From NCBI GenBank assembly GCA_017484085.1, contig JAFUTW010000005.1:1-53546 (forward strand): a stretch of 53,546 bases of DNA, given 5' to 3'. The notes beneath the pieces were generated by a model. That model was not told the origin of the DNA. It searched no databases and saw nothing but the letters and a program-made list of their open reading frames with translations. How positions within the stretch are numbered: position 1 is the first letter of the stretch; the number at the start of each line of letters is the position of its first letter. The stretch is from Clostridia bacterium (lineage in GTDB: Bacteria; Bacillota; Clostridia; Christensenellales; Aristaeellaceae). Positions 33,036 to 52,667 of this stretch are shown piece after piece. Position numbers and translations under genes: made by a program.

Positions 33036-33064
33036 ATTATAACACCAAGAATACCAACGTACAA
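33036..33064 (-). promoter_or_regulatory. Promoter of the SH3 lipoprotein at the prophage border
   Basis: Reading leftward, TTGTAC (weak -35), a 17-base spacer and perfect TATAAT. It overlaps the final codons of the integrase gene, so at least the -35 is prophage DNA. AACCGGT-AA-ACCGGTT-type symmetry lies between it and the gene (33007-33022). Confidence 0.55.
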
Positions 33065-34527
33065 TTATCAGCAGATATAAACTTTTCAAATTCTGGGTGA
33101 TGTTTTTTCAACCAGTCGGCGAACGAGCTCCGGATCTCGATCTTTTCATTGGTCAGGGTGATCGACTGGATGTACTGCTCGATGATGGGCTGCGCGATCT
33201 CGAAGGGCGTCGTCTCATCAATGGAGGCCTGTGCCTTGAAGAACTCGGCGATTCCTTCAACGTCTGCAGGCGGCTGCTCCAGCAGTTTCTGCTGCGCCTG
33301 GATCGCCTCCTCGAGCTGCGTCACCTGATCCCCGAGGGACTTCAACACACTGGGCGGCAGCACGCCGCTGCTGATGTTCTGCACGATGGCGTCGATCTTG
33401 TTCTGCATCTCGCTGATCGTTTTGCGCACGGCGGGCTCTCTGCGCTTCGTGTCCTGGGTGCGCCCGCTGATGTATTTAGAGAGTGCCTCCGCCGCTTCCT
33501 TCTGCACCTCTGGCGTCAGCAGCTGCTGGACGTACCGGATGGCGATCCTGTCCAGCTCCTCGATCCGGATGGACCGCAGCCGCGGCTTCGGATGTTTGGC
33601 ACAGCTGCGGCAAAAATATGAGGGATACTCCACCCCATTGATGCGGGTCACGTGCCCAGTGAGCGGCGCGTTACAATAGCCGCAGCGTGCGATCCCGCTG
33701 CAAAGGTAGCGCCGCGTCTCGGGAGATCGGCCTGCGAATGTCCTGGCGTCCATATTTTTGTTGACCTCCTCAAAAAGTGCTTTGCTGATGATGGCCGGAT
33801 GATGGTCCTCTATGCGTATTGTTTCGCTGCCGTATGTTCGTTCATAAACGCCGGTGTATACGATGTTACGAAGGATCACTGCAACGGATCTCGGGGTGAT
33901 CGGCTTGCCTCTTCGGCCACGGACGCCGGCAGCGGCCATCTGGTCACAGACGTGCTTGATGCCGCGGCCTTGCCGGTGCGCTTCAAAAAGCTGGCGGACC
34001 CACTGCGCCTCCTCTTCGTCGATCACCAGCTGGGAGCGATCGCTCCCGGCGCGATAGCCGAACGGGATCCAGCCGGAGAGGTAATACCCTTTGTGGGCCA
34101 TGACCTTCATGCCTTTTAGCGTCTCGGTGGCCAGGTTTTTGCTGTAGTACTCCGCCCAGGCCTGCATCAGGCTCTCCATGATGATGGCCTCCGGGCTGGT
34201 GCCGAAGTCCTGCGCGACGGCAATCAGGCGCGCCCCGTTCTTCTCGATCTGGTGGCCGTAGATGGCGCTGTCGTATTTGTTGCGGGCGAACCGGTCGTAC
34301 TTGTGCACCAGCACGAAGTCCACGCGGCGCTGCTTCAGCGAGCGGATCATCTCCTGGAAGGCCGGCCGCTCGTCCGTCGTGCCGGAGATCCCGCGGTCGG
34401 CGTATTCTTCGACGATCTGGGTGTCATGGCCGGCGGCCCACTTGCGCATCGCGTCCTGCTGGGCCTCGATGCTGCTCTCATGCTGTCGGTCCGAAGAGAA
34501 CCGGGCATAGGTCACAGCTGTCTGCAT
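33037..34527 (-). CDS. int: Large serine integrase of the prophage
   Basis: This 496-residue site-specific recombinase has an N-terminal resolvase domain (VTYARFSSDRQ with catalytic Ser11, then DRGISGTTDERPAFQEM and VHKYDRFARN). The recombinase domain follows (PFGYRAGSD, ITPRSVAVILRNIVYTGVY), then a zinc ribbon (CGYC ... CRSC, about residues 285-315) and a long coiled coil (about 360-440). It would carry out attP x attB integration at the left prophage end. AGGAGG precedes the ATG. Its tail is similar in type to the truncated recombinase at the left edge of the window. Confidence 0.95.
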   Translation of the reverse strand: MQTAVTYARFSSDRQHESSIEAQQDAMRKWAAGHDTQIVEEYADRGISGTTDERPAFQEMIRSLKQRRVDFVLVHKYDRFARNKYDSAIYGHQIEKNGARLIAVAQDFGTSPEAIIMESLMQAWAEYYSKNLATETLKGMKVMAHKGYYLSGWIPFGYRAGSDRSQLVIDEEEAQWVRQLFEAHRQGRGIKHVCDQMAAAGVRGRRGKPITPRSVAVILRNIVYTGVYERTYGSETIRIEDHHPAIISKALFEEVNKNMDARTFAGRSPETRRYLCSGIARCGYCNAPLTGHVTRINGVEYPSYFCRSCAKHPKPRLRSIRIEELDRIAIRYVQQLLTPEVQKEAAEALSKYISGRTQDTKRREPAVRKTISEMQNKIDAIVQNISSGVLPPSVLKSLGDQVTQLEEAIQAQQKLLEQPPADVEGIAEFFKAQASIDETTPFEIAQPIIEQYIQSITLTNEKIEIRSSFADWLKKHHPEFEKFISADNCTLVFLVL

Positions 34528-36349: not shown

Positions 36350-36654
36350 CGGACGGCCCGATGACCTGCGACGCGCAGGAACTGAAGAGGCTGCAGGCCA
36401 TGCTGGAGAAGGAAGGCATCCCGTGCGAATGGTTCACGGACGGGGCCGGCGCCGCGCTGAAGCTTCCCAGCTTCATGGAATGGTACAGCGGCGGAAGCCT
36501 TCGGGCTTCGGTGATCGAGACGCCTTACTCCTACGGCGGGAAGCAGGGGCTGCTGGAGGTCTGGATCCGCGGCGGCAAGACCGCGGGCGGGCCGGTCGGC
36601 TGGCTCACGGCGGAGCAAGTGATGGAAAAGCTCAGGAAGGAGTTTAAAAAATGA
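36346..36654 (+). CDS. Small early prophage protein of unknown function
   Basis: This 102-residue protein has an N-terminal helix (AQELKRLQAMLEKEGIPCEW) and a beta-rich middle (ASVIETPYSYGGKQGLLEVW). Start and stop are both in 4-base overlaps with neighbours, which fixes the ATG at 36346. No known domain is recognised. Confidence 0.65.
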   Translation: MTDGPMTCDAQELKRLQAMLEKEGIPCEWFTDGAGAALKLPSFMEWYSGGSLRASVIETPYSYGGKQGLLEVWIRGGKTAGGPVGWLTAEQVMEKLRKEFKK

Positions 36655-37307
36655 ACGTTAAGCTACTTACGTATACGCCCAGCCCGGACTGGGTATGCGC
36701 GACGGCCGCCGGCATGTGCACGCATAGGGGACCGAGCACCCGCGTGCTGCGCGCTGCCATGAAGAGCGGCCACACCTCGGTGGCAGAGCATGCCGCCTTC
36801 ACCTTTGAGATCCGCGGGATCTCCCGCGTGACCCTGCAGCAGCTGGTGCGGCACCGGCACGCCTCCTACTCGGTGGAGAGCCAGCGCCATGTGACGATCG
36901 AAAGCCTGACGGAGCACTGCGTCATCCCGGAGAGCTTCGACCGCCTGGGTGTGGATGTGCGCCCGCTGCTCGCTGAGCTGCAGCACACCTACGAGCTCCT
37001 CATGGCGGCCGGCGTGCCGATGGAGGACGCGCGCTACGTCCTTCCGGAGGGGGCCTGCACCAGCCTGGTGCTGACGATGAACGCCCGGGAGCTCCGGCAC
37101 TTCTTCCGGCTGCGGTGCTGCAACCGCGCCCAGTGGGAGATCCGTGCCCTGGCCGACGCCATGCTGGTCCTCTGCAGGCAGGCGGCTCCGGTGCTCTTCG
37201 AGCGGTGCGGCGCGCCCTGCCAGTGCGGGGAACCGTGCCCGGAGGTGCGGGGCTGCGGACATCCCAGGACGCCGGAGACGGCGGAGGTGCCCGATGCTGG
37301 AGATTAA
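36651..37307 (+). CDS. thyX: Flavin-dependent thymidylate synthase ThyX
   Basis: This 218-residue enzyme makes dTMP from dUMP with methylene-tetrahydrofolate and FADH2. The ThyX motif appears as RHRHASYSVESQRH near residue 66, with SVAEHAAFTFEIRGISRVTLQQLVRH just ahead. Later, RYVLPEGACTSLVLTMNARELRHFFRLRCC and AQWEIRALADAML match the catalytic C-terminal half. The motif has S-V where N is common before the second Ser. The last 35 residues are cysteine-rich. Phage copies raise thymidylate supply during replication. Confidence 0.92.
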   Translation: MNVKLLTYTPSPDWVCATAAGMCTHRGPSTRVLRAAMKSGHTSVAEHAAFTFEIRGISRVTLQQLVRHRHASYSVESQRHVTIESLTEHCVIPESFDRLGVDVRPLLAELQHTYELLMAAGVPMEDARYVLPEGACTSLVLTMNARELRHFFRLRCCNRAQWEIRALADAMLVLCRQAAPVLFERCGAPCQCGEPCPEVRGCGHPRTPETAEVPDAGD

Positions 37308-46684: not shown

Positions 46685-48403
46685 ATGAGCAGTCCGAAAG
46701 AGATCATGCAGTCCCGCGCGTACAGGTACGCGGAGGACGTGCTCGAGGAAAGGATCCTTGCCCCTAAGACGATCAGGCAGCAGGCGCGGCATTTCCTGGA
46801 GGAGCTGAAGCGCAGCGAGGCGGGGAAGTGGCGTTACACGTATGACCTGAAGGCTGCCAGCCTGCCGGTGGAGTTCTGCGAGCGCTTCCTCCTGCCGACG
46901 GCCGGCGACTATGACACCTTCCGCTTCATGCCCTGGCAGTGCTTCGTGGACGGCCAGGCCTTTGGATGGGTGGACAGGGGCACGGGCATGCGCCGCTTCC
47001 GCGAGGTGTTCGAGTTCGTGCCCAGGGGCAACGGCAAGACGGCGAGAAGCTCCGGCAAGATGGGCTATATGACGACCAAGGGCGGGGAGCGCGGCGCGGA
47101 AAACTACTTCTGCGCCAACAACGCCAAGCAGGCCCGGCGGCAGTATATGGACTTTTACGGGCAGATGGTGATGAGCCCGACGCTGAAGAACCGGATCCGG
47201 CTGCGCCGCTCCGAGAGCATGTACGAGCCGGACTTCACCCGCGTCACCTTCCTGGCCAACGACCCCAGCAGCCTGGACGGCCTGCGGCCGTACTTCGTGA
47301 TCAAGGACGAGCTGGAGAACGAGACCAGCTTCGACCAGATCAACCAGCTGCTGCGGCCTATGAAAAAGCGCCGGCAGCCGCTCATGTGGTACACGACGAC
47401 CGCCGGCACGGTGCTGGACGGCCCCTGTGTCTACCACTACAACTACGCCAAGAAGGTGCTGGACCGGGATCCGGAGATCTCCGAGCTGGCGATCGACACC
47501 TACCTGCCGATCCTCTACGAGATCGACCCGGACCTGCCCTACGATGACCTGCGCTGGTGGCCGATGGCCAACCCGAGCGTGGGCGTGCTGCTGACGATGG
47601 AGGACCTGACGCTCGACTGGGAGCGGGCCAGGCGCTCGCCGCAGGAGAAGGCGGACTTCGTCACCAAGCAGCTCAACCGCTTCGCCATGCCGCCGGCCGC
47701 CGTGTATGTGGATCTGGAGACGCTGCGCCGGAACGACCGCGCGGACATCCAGCCACAGCTGATCCGGCCGCAGGCGTGGGGCGGCTTTGACCTGGCCAAA
47801 TCGGAGGACTTCTGCGCCGCCTGTCTTCTCTGGCAGGAGGGCAGCGCGATCTGTGTGCTGCACCACTCCTGGGTGCCGGAGGATAAGATCAAAAGGGGCA
47901 ACGGGGACGAGGAAAAGGACTGGGCCGAGTGGGTGCGCCGCGGCTGGCTTACGATCGTCCCCGGCCACTACGTGAGCTACGAGTATATAGCCCAGTGGTT
48001 CATGGAGCAGACGCACAGCTTCGAGATCCAGCGGATCGGGTACGACCCCTACAACAGCCCGGAGCTTGTTAAAAAGCTCTCCGCGGAAGGCCTGCGCACC
48101 GAGATCGTGCGGCAGGGGCCGCTGACCTTCAACGCGCCGATGAAGTCCTTTAAAGAGCGGCTGCTGGATGGCAGCGTGCTCTGGGGCCATGATGAGATGC
48201 TGGAGTGGTACATCCGCAACGTCCGGCTGCGCGCGGACTTCTTTGACCTCGAGAAGGAAAACTGGTACCCGGCCAAGCCGGGACGGTACCAGAAGATCGA
48301 CGGCTTCATGGCCATGATGGACGCCTACGTCGTCCATATCGCGGACGACAGCCCTGAGAGCCACCTGTGGGATGACAGCCACATGATCAGCATGAGCCTG
48401 TAA
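46685..48403 (+). CDS. terL: Terminase large subunit
   Basis: This 572-residue packaging motor has an ATPase half with Walker A FVPRGNGKTA (near residue 113) and Walker B YFVIKDELEN (near 205), then TTTAGTVLDGP as the coupling motif. The nuclease half has WGGFDLAKSEDFCA and IGYDPYNSPELV with the acidic metal-binding residues. It is of the Terminase_1 (HK97-like) type and full length. GAGAGGAGAGGAGGCGG precedes the ATG; the 100 bases before it hold no gene. Confidence 0.95.
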   Translation: MSSPKEIMQSRAYRYAEDVLEERILAPKTIRQQARHFLEELKRSEAGKWRYTYDLKAASLPVEFCERFLLPTAGDYDTFRFMPWQCFVDGQAFGWVDRGTGMRRFREVFEFVPRGNGKTARSSGKMGYMTTKGGERGAENYFCANNAKQARRQYMDFYGQMVMSPTLKNRIRLRRSESMYEPDFTRVTFLANDPSSLDGLRPYFVIKDELENETSFDQINQLLRPMKKRRQPLMWYTTTAGTVLDGPCVYHYNYAKKVLDRDPEISELAIDTYLPILYEIDPDLPYDDLRWWPMANPSVGVLLTMEDLTLDWERARRSPQEKADFVTKQLNRFAMPPAAVYVDLETLRRNDRADIQPQLIRPQAWGGFDLAKSEDFCAACLLWQEGSAICVLHHSWVPEDKIKRGNGDEEKDWAEWVRRGWLTIVPGHYVSYEYIAQWFMEQTHSFEIQRIGYDPYNSPELVKKLSAEGLRTEIVRQGPLTFNAPMKSFKERLLDGSVLWGHDEMLEWYIRNVRLRADFFDLEKENWYPAKPGRYQKIDGFMAMMDAYVVHIADDSPESHLWDDSHMISMSL

Positions 48404-48415
48404 AGGAGGAGTAGT

Positions 48416-49651
48416 ATGCCAAAGCTATTGAAATGGCCTTTTAAGAGGAGCCGGGACGCTCCCGAGGACAAGAGCGCCCGCGGCGCGTGGAGCGGTTTTT
48501 CAACGGGCAGCAGCCTCACGAACATCCTGAGCGCCGTGATGCCCAGCGACCTGGGCACGGACGTCATCTACGCCGCCGTGACCCGGATCGCGGGCGCACT
48601 GGCCACGATGCCGGTCAGCCTTTACAAGGGGACCGAGCTGCAGGCGGACGATCCGCTGCACTGGCTCGTGCACCTGAGGGCCAACCGGATGATGAGCGCT
48701 TACACCTTCAAGCGGGCCGTGATGGGCTGGGTGCTGACCCAGGGCACGGGATACGCGGCCAAGGTGCTGGACGACGCCGGCAGGGTGCGCGAGCTGCGCG
48801 TGCTGGATCCCCGATGGGTGACGCCCATGATCGAGGAGGAATCCGGCGAGCTCTGGTACGTGGTGAACGTTCCGGGCCTGCAGCAGGAGGTGCTCCACAG
48901 CTGGTATGTGCTGGCCTTCCACCACATGACGCTGGACGGCGTTTCCGCGCTGCGGCCGGTGGACATCCTGAACGGCGCGGTGAAGTACGTTGAGGACGTG
49001 CGCACCTTCAGTCTGACTAACCTGGGCGGCATCAACCGCGGGATCGTCCTGGAGTACCCGACAGAACTTGCCGGCGGCCGCAGAGAGGCCAGCGTGAGGG
49101 AGTTCTTCGAGCTCTACAAGAAGACCGGCGGGCAGATCATCGCCCTGGATGCCGGCGTGAAGGCGCAGCGCATGGACGGCAGCCCGTTCGACGCCGGTCT
49201 GGATTCCATCGAGAAACTGACCCGCAGCCGTGTGGCCACGGTGTACAACCTGCCGCCGCACCTGCTGGGCGATTATTCGGACGCCACGGCCGCTTCGATC
49301 GAGCAGCAGACGATCGAGTTCCTGACCCTGACCATGCAGCCGATCGTGCAGCAGTGGGAGGAGGAGCTCGACTTCAAACTGCTGGGCCCGGAGCAGCTGG
49401 CGCAGGGGTTCCACTTCCACATCGACGTGGAGGCGTATCTGCGCGGCGATACCGCGGCCATGGCCACGAGGGACCAGAGCTCCATCCGCACCGGCAAGCG
49501 CACGGTGAACGACCTGCGCAGGCGCGACTACCTGCCGCCGGTGCCTGGCGGCGACGTGGCCATGATCTCCAAGGACCTGGCGCCGGTGGAGATGGTGGCG
49601 CGCGGCGCGACCATCGACGCGAACCAGCTGAACGGGGAAAAGAACTCTTAA
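48416..49651 (+). CDS. Portal protein (HK97 family)
   Basis: This 411-residue protein forms the dodecameric DNA gate. Family marks: DVIYAAVTRIAGALATMPVSLYK, HWLVHLRANRMMSAYTFKRAV, GYAAKVLDD, VLAFHHMTLDG, VATVYNLPPHLLGDYSDATAASIEQQTIEF and FLTLTMQPIVQQWEEEL. AAAGGAGG precedes the ATG. Confidence 0.95.
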   Translation: MPKLLKWPFKRSRDAPEDKSARGAWSGFSTGSSLTNILSAVMPSDLGTDVIYAAVTRIAGALATMPVSLYKGTELQADDPLHWLVHLRANRMMSAYTFKRAVMGWVLTQGTGYAAKVLDDAGRVRELRVLDPRWVTPMIEEESGELWYVVNVPGLQQEVLHSWYVLAFHHMTLDGVSALRPVDILNGAVKYVEDVRTFSLTNLGGINRGIVLEYPTELAGGRREASVREFFELYKKTGGQIIALDAGVKAQRMDGSPFDAGLDSIEKLTRSRVATVYNLPPHLLGDYSDATAASIEQQTIEFLTLTMQPIVQQWEEELDFKLLGPEQLAQGFHFHIDVEAYLRGDTAAMATRDQSSIRTGKRTVNDLRRRDYLPPVPGGDVAMISKDLAPVEMVARGATIDANQLNGEKNS

Positions 49652-49663
49652 GAGGTGAAAGAC

Positions 49664-51613
49664 ATGGAAAAATTCTGGAACTGGACCAGCTTCCGAAACG
49701 AAGCCGGAGAGGAACAGCGCGAGCTGCACCTGGAGGGCGTCATCGCGGAGGAAAGCTGGTGGGACGACGACGTGACGCCTGCCATGTTCCGCGAGGAGCT
49801 GATGGCGGGCAGCGGCCCGATCGTCCTGCACATCTCCAGCCCGGGCGGCGACTGCATCGCCGCCAGCCGCATCTACACGATGCTGATGGACTACCCGGGC
49901 GACGTGACCGTGCAGATCGACGGCCTGGCGGCCAGCGCGGCCAGCGTCGTGGCCATGGCGGGCACGACGGTCCGCATGAGCCCGACCGCCCTCATGATGA
50001 TCCACAACCCGATGACCTGCGCCTTCGGGGATGAGGCTGAGATGAAGGCCGCCATCAGCGTCCTTTCCGAGGTCAAGGAGAGCATCATGAACGCGTACAA
50101 CATCAAGACCGGCCTGCCGTTCGACAAGCTGGCGAAGATGATGGACGCGGAGACCTGGATGGACGCCAAGAAGGCCAAGGCGCTGGGCTTTGTCGATGAG
50201 ATCCTCTACGCGGACGGCGAGGATTCGTCACGTCCGGAGGACGTGATCCCGCCTGCGGCGGGACGTACGCCGCCAAAGGCGGCTACGCCAGAGCCGGAAG
50301 AGGAAGAGGAGGAAGAGGAGAAGCCCGCGGAACCCGCCGGCGCGGATCCGGAAGAGAAGCCGGAGGAAGAGCCGGAAGAGGATCCGGAAGAGAAGCCGGA
50401 GGAAGAGCCGGAAGAGGATCCGGAAGAAGAGCCGGAAGAGGACCCGGAAGAGGAAGAGGAAAAGGAACCGGAAAACATCCGGCTGCTGAAGGTGGCCGCA
50501 CGGTCCACCTCGCGCCTCGTGGCCGCGTGCCTGATGGACAAGGTGCACAGGACCTCATCCTTCACGGCCAAGGCCGCGCCGGAGAAGGCCGCGCCCGCGG
50601 CCAAGAAGGCGCCCGTCATCGAGGACCGGCTGAACGAGGCCGAAACCAAGAAACAGCAGAGCGCGGTGATCACCGCGTTTGCGAAAAAAGAACTGGAGGG
50701 AAAGAGCATGAACATCAAGAATCTCCGCGGCGGCTACTTCAAGAGCGCCATGACCCGGCAGCCCCTCTCCCAGGAGCTGCGCAACGAACTGACCATCACG
50801 ACCGGCGCAAACCCCGGCAACGGCCTGCTGCCCGTCGAGGTGAGCCGCAGCCTGATCGGCGACATCTACGGCGAGGACAAATTCCTCTCCGCCATCACGC
50901 ACACCCAGATCAAGGGCCTGCGCCTGCCCAAGGTCACGACGACGCCCGCGACGGACGGCGTCCGCAGCCCTGACGGCACCACGCTCGCCGGCGAGACCAC
51001 GCTGGCGGATGAGACGATCAACTTCGGCCGCTTCCCCGGCCGCGAGAAGATCGTGGTCCCCACGGCCATCCTGGGCGGCACCGAGACCGACCTGGACGCC
51101 TTCATCTCCGCCCGCCTGCAGTACGATCACCGCAGGAATCTGCGCAGCCGTATCTTCAACGCCTCCGCCACCGGCGAGATGGCGCACATGAGCGTCTACT
51201 CCAAGGGCGCCGGCAACCCGGCCCTGCCGGTCTCCGGGGGCTCCGATACGCTGGACGCCGTCCAGCAGGCCATCGCCGCGCTGCCTGAGGGCGTCCGCGA
51301 GAACGCGAAGGTCGTTATGACGTACGCGCAGTGGATGGAGATGATCAAGACCCTGGCCAACGGCGCCACCGCGCTCTTCGGCGCGCCCACCAAGGAAATG
51401 CTGGGCTTCGAGGTCATCACCTGCGACTATGTCGCCGCGGCCGGCATGCTGGTCGGCGACCTGTCCGCGATCCACGTCAACTACGACGATCCGCTGCGCC
51501 TCAAGACCGACGAGGACATCGACCTCGACATGACCAAGATTGTGATCGCCTACGATTACGACATCCATGTCGAGGACGCGAACAGGCTGCGCCTGGCCAA
51601 GGTCAGCGGCTGA
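49664..51613 (+). CDS. Fused capsid maturation protease, scaffold and major capsid protein
   Basis: One uninterrupted frame of 649 residues joins three parts. Residues 1-190 are a ClpP-like head maturation protease: LHISSPGGDCIAASRIY, then GLAASAASVVAMAG with probable catalytic Ser91, MMIHNP with His114, and DAETWMDAKKAKALGFVDEI with Asp161. Residues 205-270 are an acidic Glu/Pro linker, and 271-348 a helical scaffold or delta-like part. Residues 349-649 are an HK97-fold capsid protein (LLPVEVSRSLIGDIYGED, YDDPLRLKTDEDIDLDM). GAGGTGAAAGAC precedes ATG 49664. A second full start signal lies inside (see the nested entry), so two products are expected. Confidence 0.92.
   Translation: MEKFWNWTSFRNEAGEEQRELHLEGVIAEESWWDDDVTPAMFREELMAGSGPIVLHISSPGGDCIAASRIYTMLMDYPGDVTVQIDGLAASAASVVAMAGTTVRMSPTALMMIHNPMTCAFGDEAEMKAAISVLSEVKESIMNAYNIKTGLPFDKLAKMMDAETWMDAKKAKALGFVDEILYADGEDSSRPEDVIPPAAGRTPPKAATPEPEEEEEEEEKPAEPAGADPEEKPEEEPEEDPEEKPEEEPEEDPEEEPEEDPEEEEEKEPENIRLLKVAARSTSRLVAACLMDKVHRTSSFTAKAAPEKAAPAAKKAPVIEDRLNEAETKKQQSAVITAFAKKELEGKSMNIKNLRGGYFKSAMTRQPLSQELRNELTITTGANPGNGLLPVEVSRSLIGDIYGEDKFLSAITHTQIKGLRLPKVTTTPATDGVRSPDGTTLAGETTLADETINFGRFPGREKIVVPTAILGGTETDLDAFISARLQYDHRRNLRSRIFNASATGEMAHMSVYSKGAGNPALPVSGGSDTLDAVQQAIAALPEGVRENAKVVMTYAQWMEMIKTLANGATALFGAPTKEMLGFEVITCDYVAAAGMLVGDLSAIHVNYDDPLRLKTDEDIDLDMTKIVIAYDYDIHVEDANRLRLAKVSG
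50300..50470 (+). repeat. 36-base repeats coding the acidic linker
   Basis: Units starting GATCCGGAAGAGAAGCCGG occur twice in full (about 50345 and 50381), followed by shortened units. They encode DPEEKPEEEPEE-type repeats. Confidence 0.8.
50708..51613 (+). CDS. Nested major capsid protein from an internal start
   Basis: Within the fusion frame, GGAGGG (50695-50700), seven bases and ATG 50708 form a complete start site at Met349, exactly where the HK97-fold capsid sequence begins (MNIKNLRGGYFK). The product would be 301 residues, a normal mature capsid length. This resembles nested scaffold genes such as lambda C/Nu3, but with capsid as the inner product. Translation from here is inferred from sequence only. 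Confidence 0.65.
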   Translation: MNIKNLRGGYFKSAMTRQPLSQELRNELTITTGANPGNGLLPVEVSRSLIGDIYGEDKFLSAITHTQIKGLRLPKVTTTPATDGVRSPDGTTLAGETTLADETINFGRFPGREKIVVPTAILGGTETDLDAFISARLQYDHRRNLRSRIFNASATGEMAHMSVYSKGAGNPALPVSGGSDTLDAVQQAIAALPEGVRENAKVVMTYAQWMEMIKTLANGATALFGAPTKEMLGFEVITCDYVAAAGMLVGDLSAIHVNYDDPLRLKTDEDIDLDMTKIVIAYDYDIHVEDANRLRLAKVSG

Positions 51614-51658: not shown

Positions 51659-51973
51659 ATGACGAACGATGAAGTCCTGGAGCTCCTCGGCGGGCAGGCT
51701 GCCGTGCGGGAATACCTGCGCGGCGTGGAGGAAGGCAGCGAGACGGACAAGGACGCCAGGCGCGCCATGCTGGCCGCCATCAGCTCGGCCAGGGCCGCCG
51801 GCGTCTACCCGGCCATGGCCGTGGCGGAGCCGGAGCTCTATGCCCAGTACTGCCTCATGCAGTGCCGGATGTGGACGGACGCCGAGGACGCCGCGGCTGA
51901 CGCTATCATGCGCCAGCACAGCGCCATCTGCCTGCAGCTGAGGCACGACCCCAGAAATGTAAGCGACGAATAA
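51659..51973 (+). CDS. Head-tail connector-like protein
   Basis: This 104-residue helical protein lies where HK97 gp6-type connectors are found, between capsid and tail genes. It has NDEVLELLGGQAAVREYLRG, then RAMLAAISSARAAGVYPAM and CRMWTDAEDAAADAIM. GGAAGGAG precedes the ATG. The assignment is positional and by helical pattern. Confidence 0.62.
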   Translation: MTNDEVLELLGGQAAVREYLRGVEEGSETDKDARRAMLAAISSARAAGVYPAMAVAEPELYAQYCLMQCRMWTDAEDAAADAIMRQHSAICLQLRHDPRNVSDE

Positions 51974-51989
51974 GAAGGAAGTGACTAGA

Positions 51990-52667
51990 ATGAGTGCACC
52001 CGTGAGCACCCTGGACGCGATCCAGGCGATGGGCCTGTATGACGGACTGGGTGACATTTATCTGGCCCGCATGACCAACAAGGGCACGGCCACGGCCGCG
52101 CCGACCTACGAGACGCCGATCCTCGCGTGCGAGGGCGTGCAGGTCTCCCTGCAGCCGCAGTACGCTGAGGGCAGCCAGAGCGCCAGCAACCGCGTGATCC
52201 GCAAGAGCCGCCGCCTCACCAGCATCAACGTGACGGTGCAGTACCCGCGCATGCTTCCGCAGGTGATGGCCTACCTGCACGGCCGCAAGATTGACGCGAA
52301 CGGCGGCGAGACCGTGGGCGACAACGTCTCCCCGGAATTTGCCGTCGGCATCAAGGCCACGCGTGACGACGGCTCCGCCGTAATGCGCTGGCTGTTCATG
52401 TGCACGCTGTCCGAGGGCAACCTCGACCACGCGACGCGCGAGGACGGCACGATCACCTACCAGATCCCGACCCTCGAGGGCAGCGCGCTGCCGCTGGCCT
52501 ACGAGTACGACGAGCCCGCCCTGGATACGGGCAGCGACGCCGTGAAGGTCCACCCGATCCAGTACAAGGCGGACACCGCGGAGGCGGGCGGCAAGTGGAC
52601 GGAGGACAACTTCTTCACGGCCGTCGTCGGCCCGTGGAGCGATGCCCCGACGACCACCGGCGGCTGA
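51990..52667 (+). CDS. Major tail protein
   Basis: This 225-residue protein resembles phi13-type tail tube proteins: an N-terminal LYDGLGDIYLARMTNKG, a duplex-like core (SASNRVIRKSRRLTSINVTVQY, MAYLHGRKID) and LFMCTLSEG. AAGGAAGTGACTAGA precedes ATG 51990; the GTG three codons earlier lacks spacing. A hairpin follows the stop. Confidence 0.82.
   Translation: MSAPVSTLDAIQAMGLYDGLGDIYLARMTNKGTATAAPTYETPILACEGVQVSLQPQYAEGSQSASNRVIRKSRRLTSINVTVQYPRMLPQVMAYLHGRKIDANGGETVGDNVSPEFAVGIKATRDDGSAVMRWLFMCTLSEGNLDHATREDGTITYQIPTLEGSALPLAYEYDEPALDTGSDAVKVHPIQYKADTAEAGGKWTEDNFFTAVVGPWSDAPTTTGG

Follow-up and report, generated by a model that had tools for sequence, protein, structure and literature searches.

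A single reading frame for a ClpP-like head-maturation protease and an HK97-type capsid, with a putative internal start, in a Clostridia contig

The fused gene and its neighbours

In the window (the whole stretch of 53,546 nt that was analysed), several phage head genes lie towards the right-hand side, and the contig end at 53546 comes shortly after the major tail gene (Table 1). The left part is host-like, with PPK2, a pseudouridine synthase and a tRNA-Ala at 720-795. A serine recombinase of the Resolvase/Recombinase type (33037-34527, minus strand) may mark the prophage edge, and a Thy1-type thymidylate synthase is encoded at 36651-37307 on the plus strand.

In HK97-like phages, the usual head-gene order puts the protease and capsid genes after the portal gene. 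The gene studied here occupies that same place, between the portal gene on one side and a small ORF followed by the major tail gene on the other. Similarly, the GenBank phage matches list capsid, protease and portal side by side. The small ORF of 104 residues stands where a head-tail connector usually lies. The ORF list, Pfam and PHROGs revealed no separate scaffold gene next to the head genes.

Table 1. Head genes of the window and the parts of the fused gene, in order of position.
Feature	Position	Strand	Basis
Terminase large subunit	46685..48403	+	Pfam
Portal protein, directly 5' of the fused gene	48416..49651	+	
AAGAGGTG (SD energy -7.1), where ribosomes probably bind to make the long form; overlaps the portal stop	49650..49657	+	
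One open reading frame of 649 aa (70.7 kDa), the long form, with protease, acidic linker, basic segment and capsid in that order	49664..51613	+	
ClpP-like head-maturation protease core, residues 20-181 (Ser91, His114, probable acid Glu163)	49721..50206	+	Domain models, alignments
Acidic linker (residues 200-271), rich in Glu and Pro; its tandem repeats of 12/36 bp lie at 50344-50473	50261..50476	+	
Basic segment, residues 272-348, at the place of the delta/scaffold domain of split relatives; pairwise homology not significant	50477..50707	+	
GGAGGG, internal Shine-Dalgarno (SD) sequence (predicted)	50695..50700	+	
Putative short form, starting at Met349: the capsid by itself, 301 aa, 32.5 kDa	50708..51613	+	
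HK97-type capsid domain (PF05065)	50825..51601	+	
ORF of 104 aa without a Pfam, PHROGs or NCBIfam match	51659..51973	+	
Major tail protein	51981..52667	+	

The frame runs from the ATG at 49664 to a TGA at 51611-51613 without an internal stop. Pfam places CLP_protease at residues 37-181 (E 1.6e-29) and Phage_capsid at residues 388-646 (E 7.4e-13), the latter (PF05065) with 48.9 bits against a cut-off of 24.2. In agreement with this, NF045542 ('head maturation protease, ClpP-related') matches residues 20-180 with 171.8 bits (cut-off 120) and TIGR01554 ('phage major capsid protein') matches residues 305-647 with 58.5 bits (cut-off 27.5). The acidic linker consists of 50% Glu and 22% Pro, the basic segment has a pI of 10.1, and protease and linker together have a mass of 38.2 kDa. 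The coding pattern by codon position is kept through the linker (GC3 0.68-0.86 and GC2 0.38-0.44 in three 150-nt segments). The gene is confirmed as one frame joining a ClpP-like head-maturation protease and an HK97-type capsid, and the original prediction of protease, acidic linker and capsid in a single frame stands, with both domains over curated cut-offs.

For the protease, Ser91, His114 and Asp161 had been named as the probable catalytic residues. Ser91 and His114 are present in 250 of 250 distinct aligned rows (the protein's own row included), which bears out the first two. Glu163 is kept in 241 of these rows as against 190 for Asp161, and in an alignment to the solved ClpP 6cfd it pairs with the aspartate of RDNYM, presumably the catalytic one. 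Asp161 is the weaker choice on both of these grounds, and the acid of the triad is more likely to be Glu163.

Relatives and other protease-capsid fusions

The protease-capsid fusion in a single gene is an architecture that is already known, and NCBI holds two models for such fusions, NF045540 and NF045541. In the literature, protease, scaffold and capsid are suggested to be one gene in MD8-like phages (PMC8508860), ClpP-capsid proteins of nearly 700 aa are reported in 17 Paracoccus prophages of the Siphoviridae (34% of that group; PMC6536676), and one cluster of Rhodobacter phages has an apparently fused capsid and protease (PMC8601537). Among GenBank phages, such single genes are carried by mEp460, mEp043, LESphi2, Psul1 and Pben1, among others; mEp460 and LESphi2 exceed the NF045540 cut-off, while the MD8 group is placed with the NF045540 fusions by its description only (PMC8508860).

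The gene described here shares with the NF045540 fusions an N-terminal ClpP-type protease, a scaffold-like stretch and a capsid in one gene. Membership of that family was rejected. The 649-aa protein reaches 172 bits against a cut-off of 475, and the match covers only 28-268 of the 652 model positions, i.e. the protease part, in place of a full-length match. Further, fusions with a full-length match to the model carry a PF25209 and PF10124 capsid (4/4 scanned), whereas the capsid here matches PF05065 and TIGR01554 and is not of the PF25209/Mu gpT type.

Two other fusions were met in the searches. The first, a 774-aa single gene with an HK97-type proheadase and a capsid (L203:1670-3994, minus strand, genome G109), scores 32.8 of 59 bits with TIGR01543 and 498 of 525 bits with NF045541, and has GGGAGG before an in-frame ATG at residue 233. 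Like the 649-aa gene, this NF045541-type fusion has protease and capsid in one gene and a strong SD before an ATG past the protease, but its protease type and capsid family are different. Its only viral relative found, L399, has no frame of more than 507 aa on the matching strand and may therefore be split. The second is a 622-aa frame on an IMG/VR contig (L290:536-2401, plus strand), in which a ClpP-type protease is joined to PF06673 (Lactococcus phage major capsid family); it represents a further capsid partner for the same kind of protease.

The original prediction had proposed a search of related phages for the fused frame. Viral contigs, genome contigs, genomes from genus to order and GenBank phages yielded no relative carrying this fusion. 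Of 225 loci examined, 169 outside the fused gene's own copies carry its protease type and its capsid type, and in none of them (0/169) do the two lie in one frame; these loci correspond to 51 capsid clusters at 75% identity, some being one place fetched twice. The whole-protein search gave 58 loci in genome contigs and was also run in 100 and 396 genomes from genus to order; in viral contigs the best 80 of 308 matches were kept. No single place covering 80% of the 649-aa protein was present among 1422 matching records of GenBank phages. The capsid gave no match in viral contigs and matched in 9 of 300 genomes of the family, and NF045540 matched in 269 of 300 genomes, in none over its cut-off; the genome sets of all these searches overlap. 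Eighteen fetched stretches contained both parts in separate ORFs (13 cases), the protease only (three), the capsid only (one) and the other fusion type (L203).

Separate proteases reach up to 70% identity with the protease part, and the nearest capsid, 43% identical, is encoded by a separate gene (genome G003). Split HK97-like heads with a ClpP-type protease, such as those of G003 and Lactobacillus phage JNU_P1, have the same protease family, capsid family and gene order as the 649-aa gene; they differ in using two genes, with a capsid precursor that carries its own delta-like region. Since the NF045540 test failed, the capsid belongs to another family and none of the 169 related loci is fused, the 649-aa fusion looks independent of the known ones, as far as the searched collections reach.

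The same lack of fused relatives would also agree with a metagenome assembly error or a decayed prophage in which a stop or frame change between two separate genes was lost. The genome is fragmented (49 contigs, 80.75% complete) and the linker contains tandem repeats, both of which favour such an artefact; the 649 open codons and the coding pattern in the linker speak against it, as do the portal, terminase and major tail ORFs, which match their models over most of their length. In addition, no ATG, GTG or TTG with a fair SD is present at residues 265-292, where a split capsid would be expected to start, and thus one lost stop would not explain the layout. We regard an error or decay of this kind as improbable.

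Start signals inside the fused genes

A second start exactly at the first capsid residue had been part of the original prediction. The signal itself is present: an in-frame ATG (50708-50710, Met349) follows GGAGGG after a gap of 7 nt and combines a strong SD with weak structure. The position was less exact, as the capsid match begins 35 residues after Met349 with its own profile (residue 384) or 39 with Pfam. The anti-SD duplex energy at Met349 is -9.8 kcal/mol, compared with -7.1 at the first ATG of the gene, and falls between the extremes (-0.1 and -11.3) seen at the starts of nine neighbouring phage ORFs. In the same genome, an SD this strong occurs at 7 of 717 internal ATGs (104 ORFs, twelve stretches) or, with a slightly wider filter, at 8 of 736; nine further ORFs of the phage region contain 91 internal ATGs, of which one reaches this energy. 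Of the eight ATG, GTG and TTG codons in residues 182-365, only Met349 has a strong SD.

The 63 bases around Met349 fold at an MFE of -6.9 kcal/mol. Six phage genes, the fused gene included, contain 92 other internal ATGs (median -20.3), all of them at least as structured, and ten ORF starts range from -3.9 to -17.2. Strong SD and weak structure occur jointly at 1 of the 736 internal ATGs. Synonymous shuffles that kept the protein and drew on the codon usage of this gene gave p = 0.017 for the weak structure at Met349 and p = 0.0045 for both marks together, while the 24 other ATGs of the gene gave p values of 0.109-0.995 for weak structure. The value of 0.017 is one of 25 and would not survive correction; it counts because the site had been named before the test. 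The codon choice keeps Met349 open. Selection on the SD letters was unsupported by synonymous shuffling (p = 0.52), and these letters are not unexpected, since the peptide supplies them anyway. These figures give the internal start firmer backing than the original prediction could offer, and a second start inside the gene probably makes the shell protein alone.

Nested start signals were also sought in other fusions. Frames of 540 aa or more that contain a ClpP-type protease (109 in the sample) formed 24 clusters at 70% identity, of which 22 were kept; the 649-aa gene itself was left out, as was L257, which has its protease at the C-terminal end and is no such fusion, and the PF06673 fusion L290 was retained. 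In an NCBIfam scan of 14 of the 22 clusters, 13 match NF045540 along its length (8 over the cut-off) and one is L290. An ATG with an SD of -4.5 or stronger, from 6 residues before to 60 residues after the protease end, is present in 19 of the 22 clusters as compared with 5.1 expected from same-length stretches in the rest of each gene, and 19 was not reached in any of 5000 draws; with an SD of -7 or stronger, the count is 10 of 22 against 0.7 expected. Compared with 453 other internal ATGs, the nested sites of these clusters have weaker structure (p = 1.5e-5), and the same holds relative to synonymous shuffles (p = 1.1e-5); individually, only 6 of 22 sites have p < 0.1, and the p values are guides only because the clusters share ancestry.

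Two clades illustrate how these sites are kept. In the LESphi2/mEp460 clade, AGGA[G/A] stands 9 bases before the same Met-Pro in 86 of 89 loci, many of them nearly identical. Members of the Psul1/Sc-Yong805-1 clade all keep the Met (9 of 9), behind a purine-rich stretch and in a hypervariable linker that hardly aligns; three of the nine have a weak SD in front of it (-3.7 to -4.6). Phage Sc-Yong805-1 (L222) has two strong internal starts, at codons 225 and 353. The resemblance of the latter (MKGKSLRGG) to MNIKNLRGG of the 649-aa protein was dropped, as the Met is found in 1 of 9 relatives.

In most of the other clusters the nested start comes 7-45 residues past the protease, near its end and before the scaffold-like stretch, whereas Met349 sits some 160-170 residues past the protease and behind the delta-like place; the 649-aa gene has no ATG in the range used for the other fusions, and this difference in position weighs against the use of Met349. 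Because their start follows shortly after the protease, the nested product of these other fusions would retain the scaffold-like stretch.

No report of a nested capsid start in protease-capsid fusions was found in the open-licence literature, mostly titles and the openings of abstracts. Likewise, none is described in the available parts of PMC8508860, PMC6536676, PMC8601537, PMC5155283 and PMC3224144, and a word search of the MD8 paper (PMC8508860) found neither 'internal' nor 'start codon'.

Possible products and shell assembly

Fused protease-capsid genes raise the question of how the protease is kept off every shell subunit, and the nested start signals of the 19 clusters offer a testable answer. 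We consider it fairly probable that the 649-aa frame is a prophage head gene in which protease, scaffold-like region and major capsid are fused and which has two starts. Ribosomes starting at 49664 would make the long form (protease, linker, scaffold and capsid), and those starting at Met349 would make the capsid alone, so that one gene would yield plain shell subunits together with enzyme-carrying ones. Both forms would co-assemble through their common capsid domain, by which a limited amount of protease and scaffold would come to lie inside the prohead; once the shell was assembled, the protease would cut the linker and the capsid N-termini. We infer both the use of Met349 and the ratio of long to short form. 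The original idea that one gene yields two products, long and short, gains support in its logic from the nested signals of other fusions, but the fusion is not a new architecture.

A comparable arrangement is known from phage lambda, where a nested in-frame start in the protease gene C gives long and short (Nu3) products with a common C-terminus. There the common part is the scaffold and the capsid is separate, whereas in the 649-aa gene, with its sequence signals for two starts, the common part would be the capsid. The overlap of C and Nu3 appears in the reference list of the MD8 paper (PMC8508860).

Alternatively, only the long form might be made, each subunit carrying a protease and scaffold that are removed before packaging, with Met349 being accidental. 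The long form has everything needed, the SD at Met349 follows from the peptide, and the products of such fusions are shown in none of the papers examined, as far as their available text goes. Crowding does not exclude this reading either, since some 400 copies of the protease and linker would take up roughly half of the space inside a T=7 prohead (a rough estimate from the dimensions of such a prohead). The weak structure and codon choice at Met349, and the nested signals of most clusters of other fusions (19 of 22), argue against it, and we consider it rather unlikely.

The position of Met349 has consequences for the scaffold. Shells of the HK97 family depend on a scaffold and undergo trimming by the protease (in part after PMC8508860). 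An alignment sets residues 265-348 of the 649-aa protein opposite the delta region of split relatives; in BLASTP, the linker gave no match to delta domains in one comparison and E 0.46 in another, neither of which is significant. The capsid precursors of 43 of 43 distinct split relatives have 108-147 residues before the capsid profile, as compared with 35 from Met349. Their starts were first chosen excluding any less than 60 residues from the profile, and the count was still 43/43 when this limit was removed. A short form from Met349 would thus lack about 75-110 residues that are present in split relatives, and with them the greater part of the delta-like region, a consequence that the original prediction did not draw. 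That Met349 lies behind the place of the delta scaffold, unlike the start in all 43, counts against its use. With Met349 as the start, the short form would be almost without scaffold and the long form would therefore have to supply it.

In HK97, every subunit brings its scaffold. If Met349 is used, an HK97-type shell could, unlike that of HK97, form from subunits of which only some carry scaffold. A broader reading is that phages with protease, scaffold and capsid in a single gene all run on a nested start, the shell being made of numerous short chains and the protease and scaffold being brought by a small number of long ones. In the present gene this start would have moved behind the scaffold, so that the majority of subunits would be without a delta domain and a minority of scaffold-bearing subunits would set the geometry; we put this forward tentatively, as somewhat short of probable.

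The split relatives would be better matched by a short form that starts elsewhere and keeps the delta-like region, at Met291, at a non-ATG codon near residue 272, or at codon 194 or 195 just behind the protease, which is the nested-start place of the other fusions. A GGAGG stands 2 nt before GTG codon 194 (SD -2.6 or -5.4, depending on the scoring window) and 5 nt before ATC codon 195 (SD -9.5), and ATC codon 272 has an SD of -5.1. Codons 194 and 195 are strongly structured (MFE -34.9 and -34.7), and codon 272 has an MFE of -18.8. Moreover, GTG 194 stands too close to its SD, and ATC is rarely used as a start codon. Met291 combines an MFE of -19.5 with an SD of only -1.5. A start at any of these codons is very improbable.

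The stretch 50236-50248 contains this GGAGG behind the protease, both codons that follow it being in frame. The GGAGG may be left over from a nested start like that of the other fusions at this place, but it lies in strong structure.
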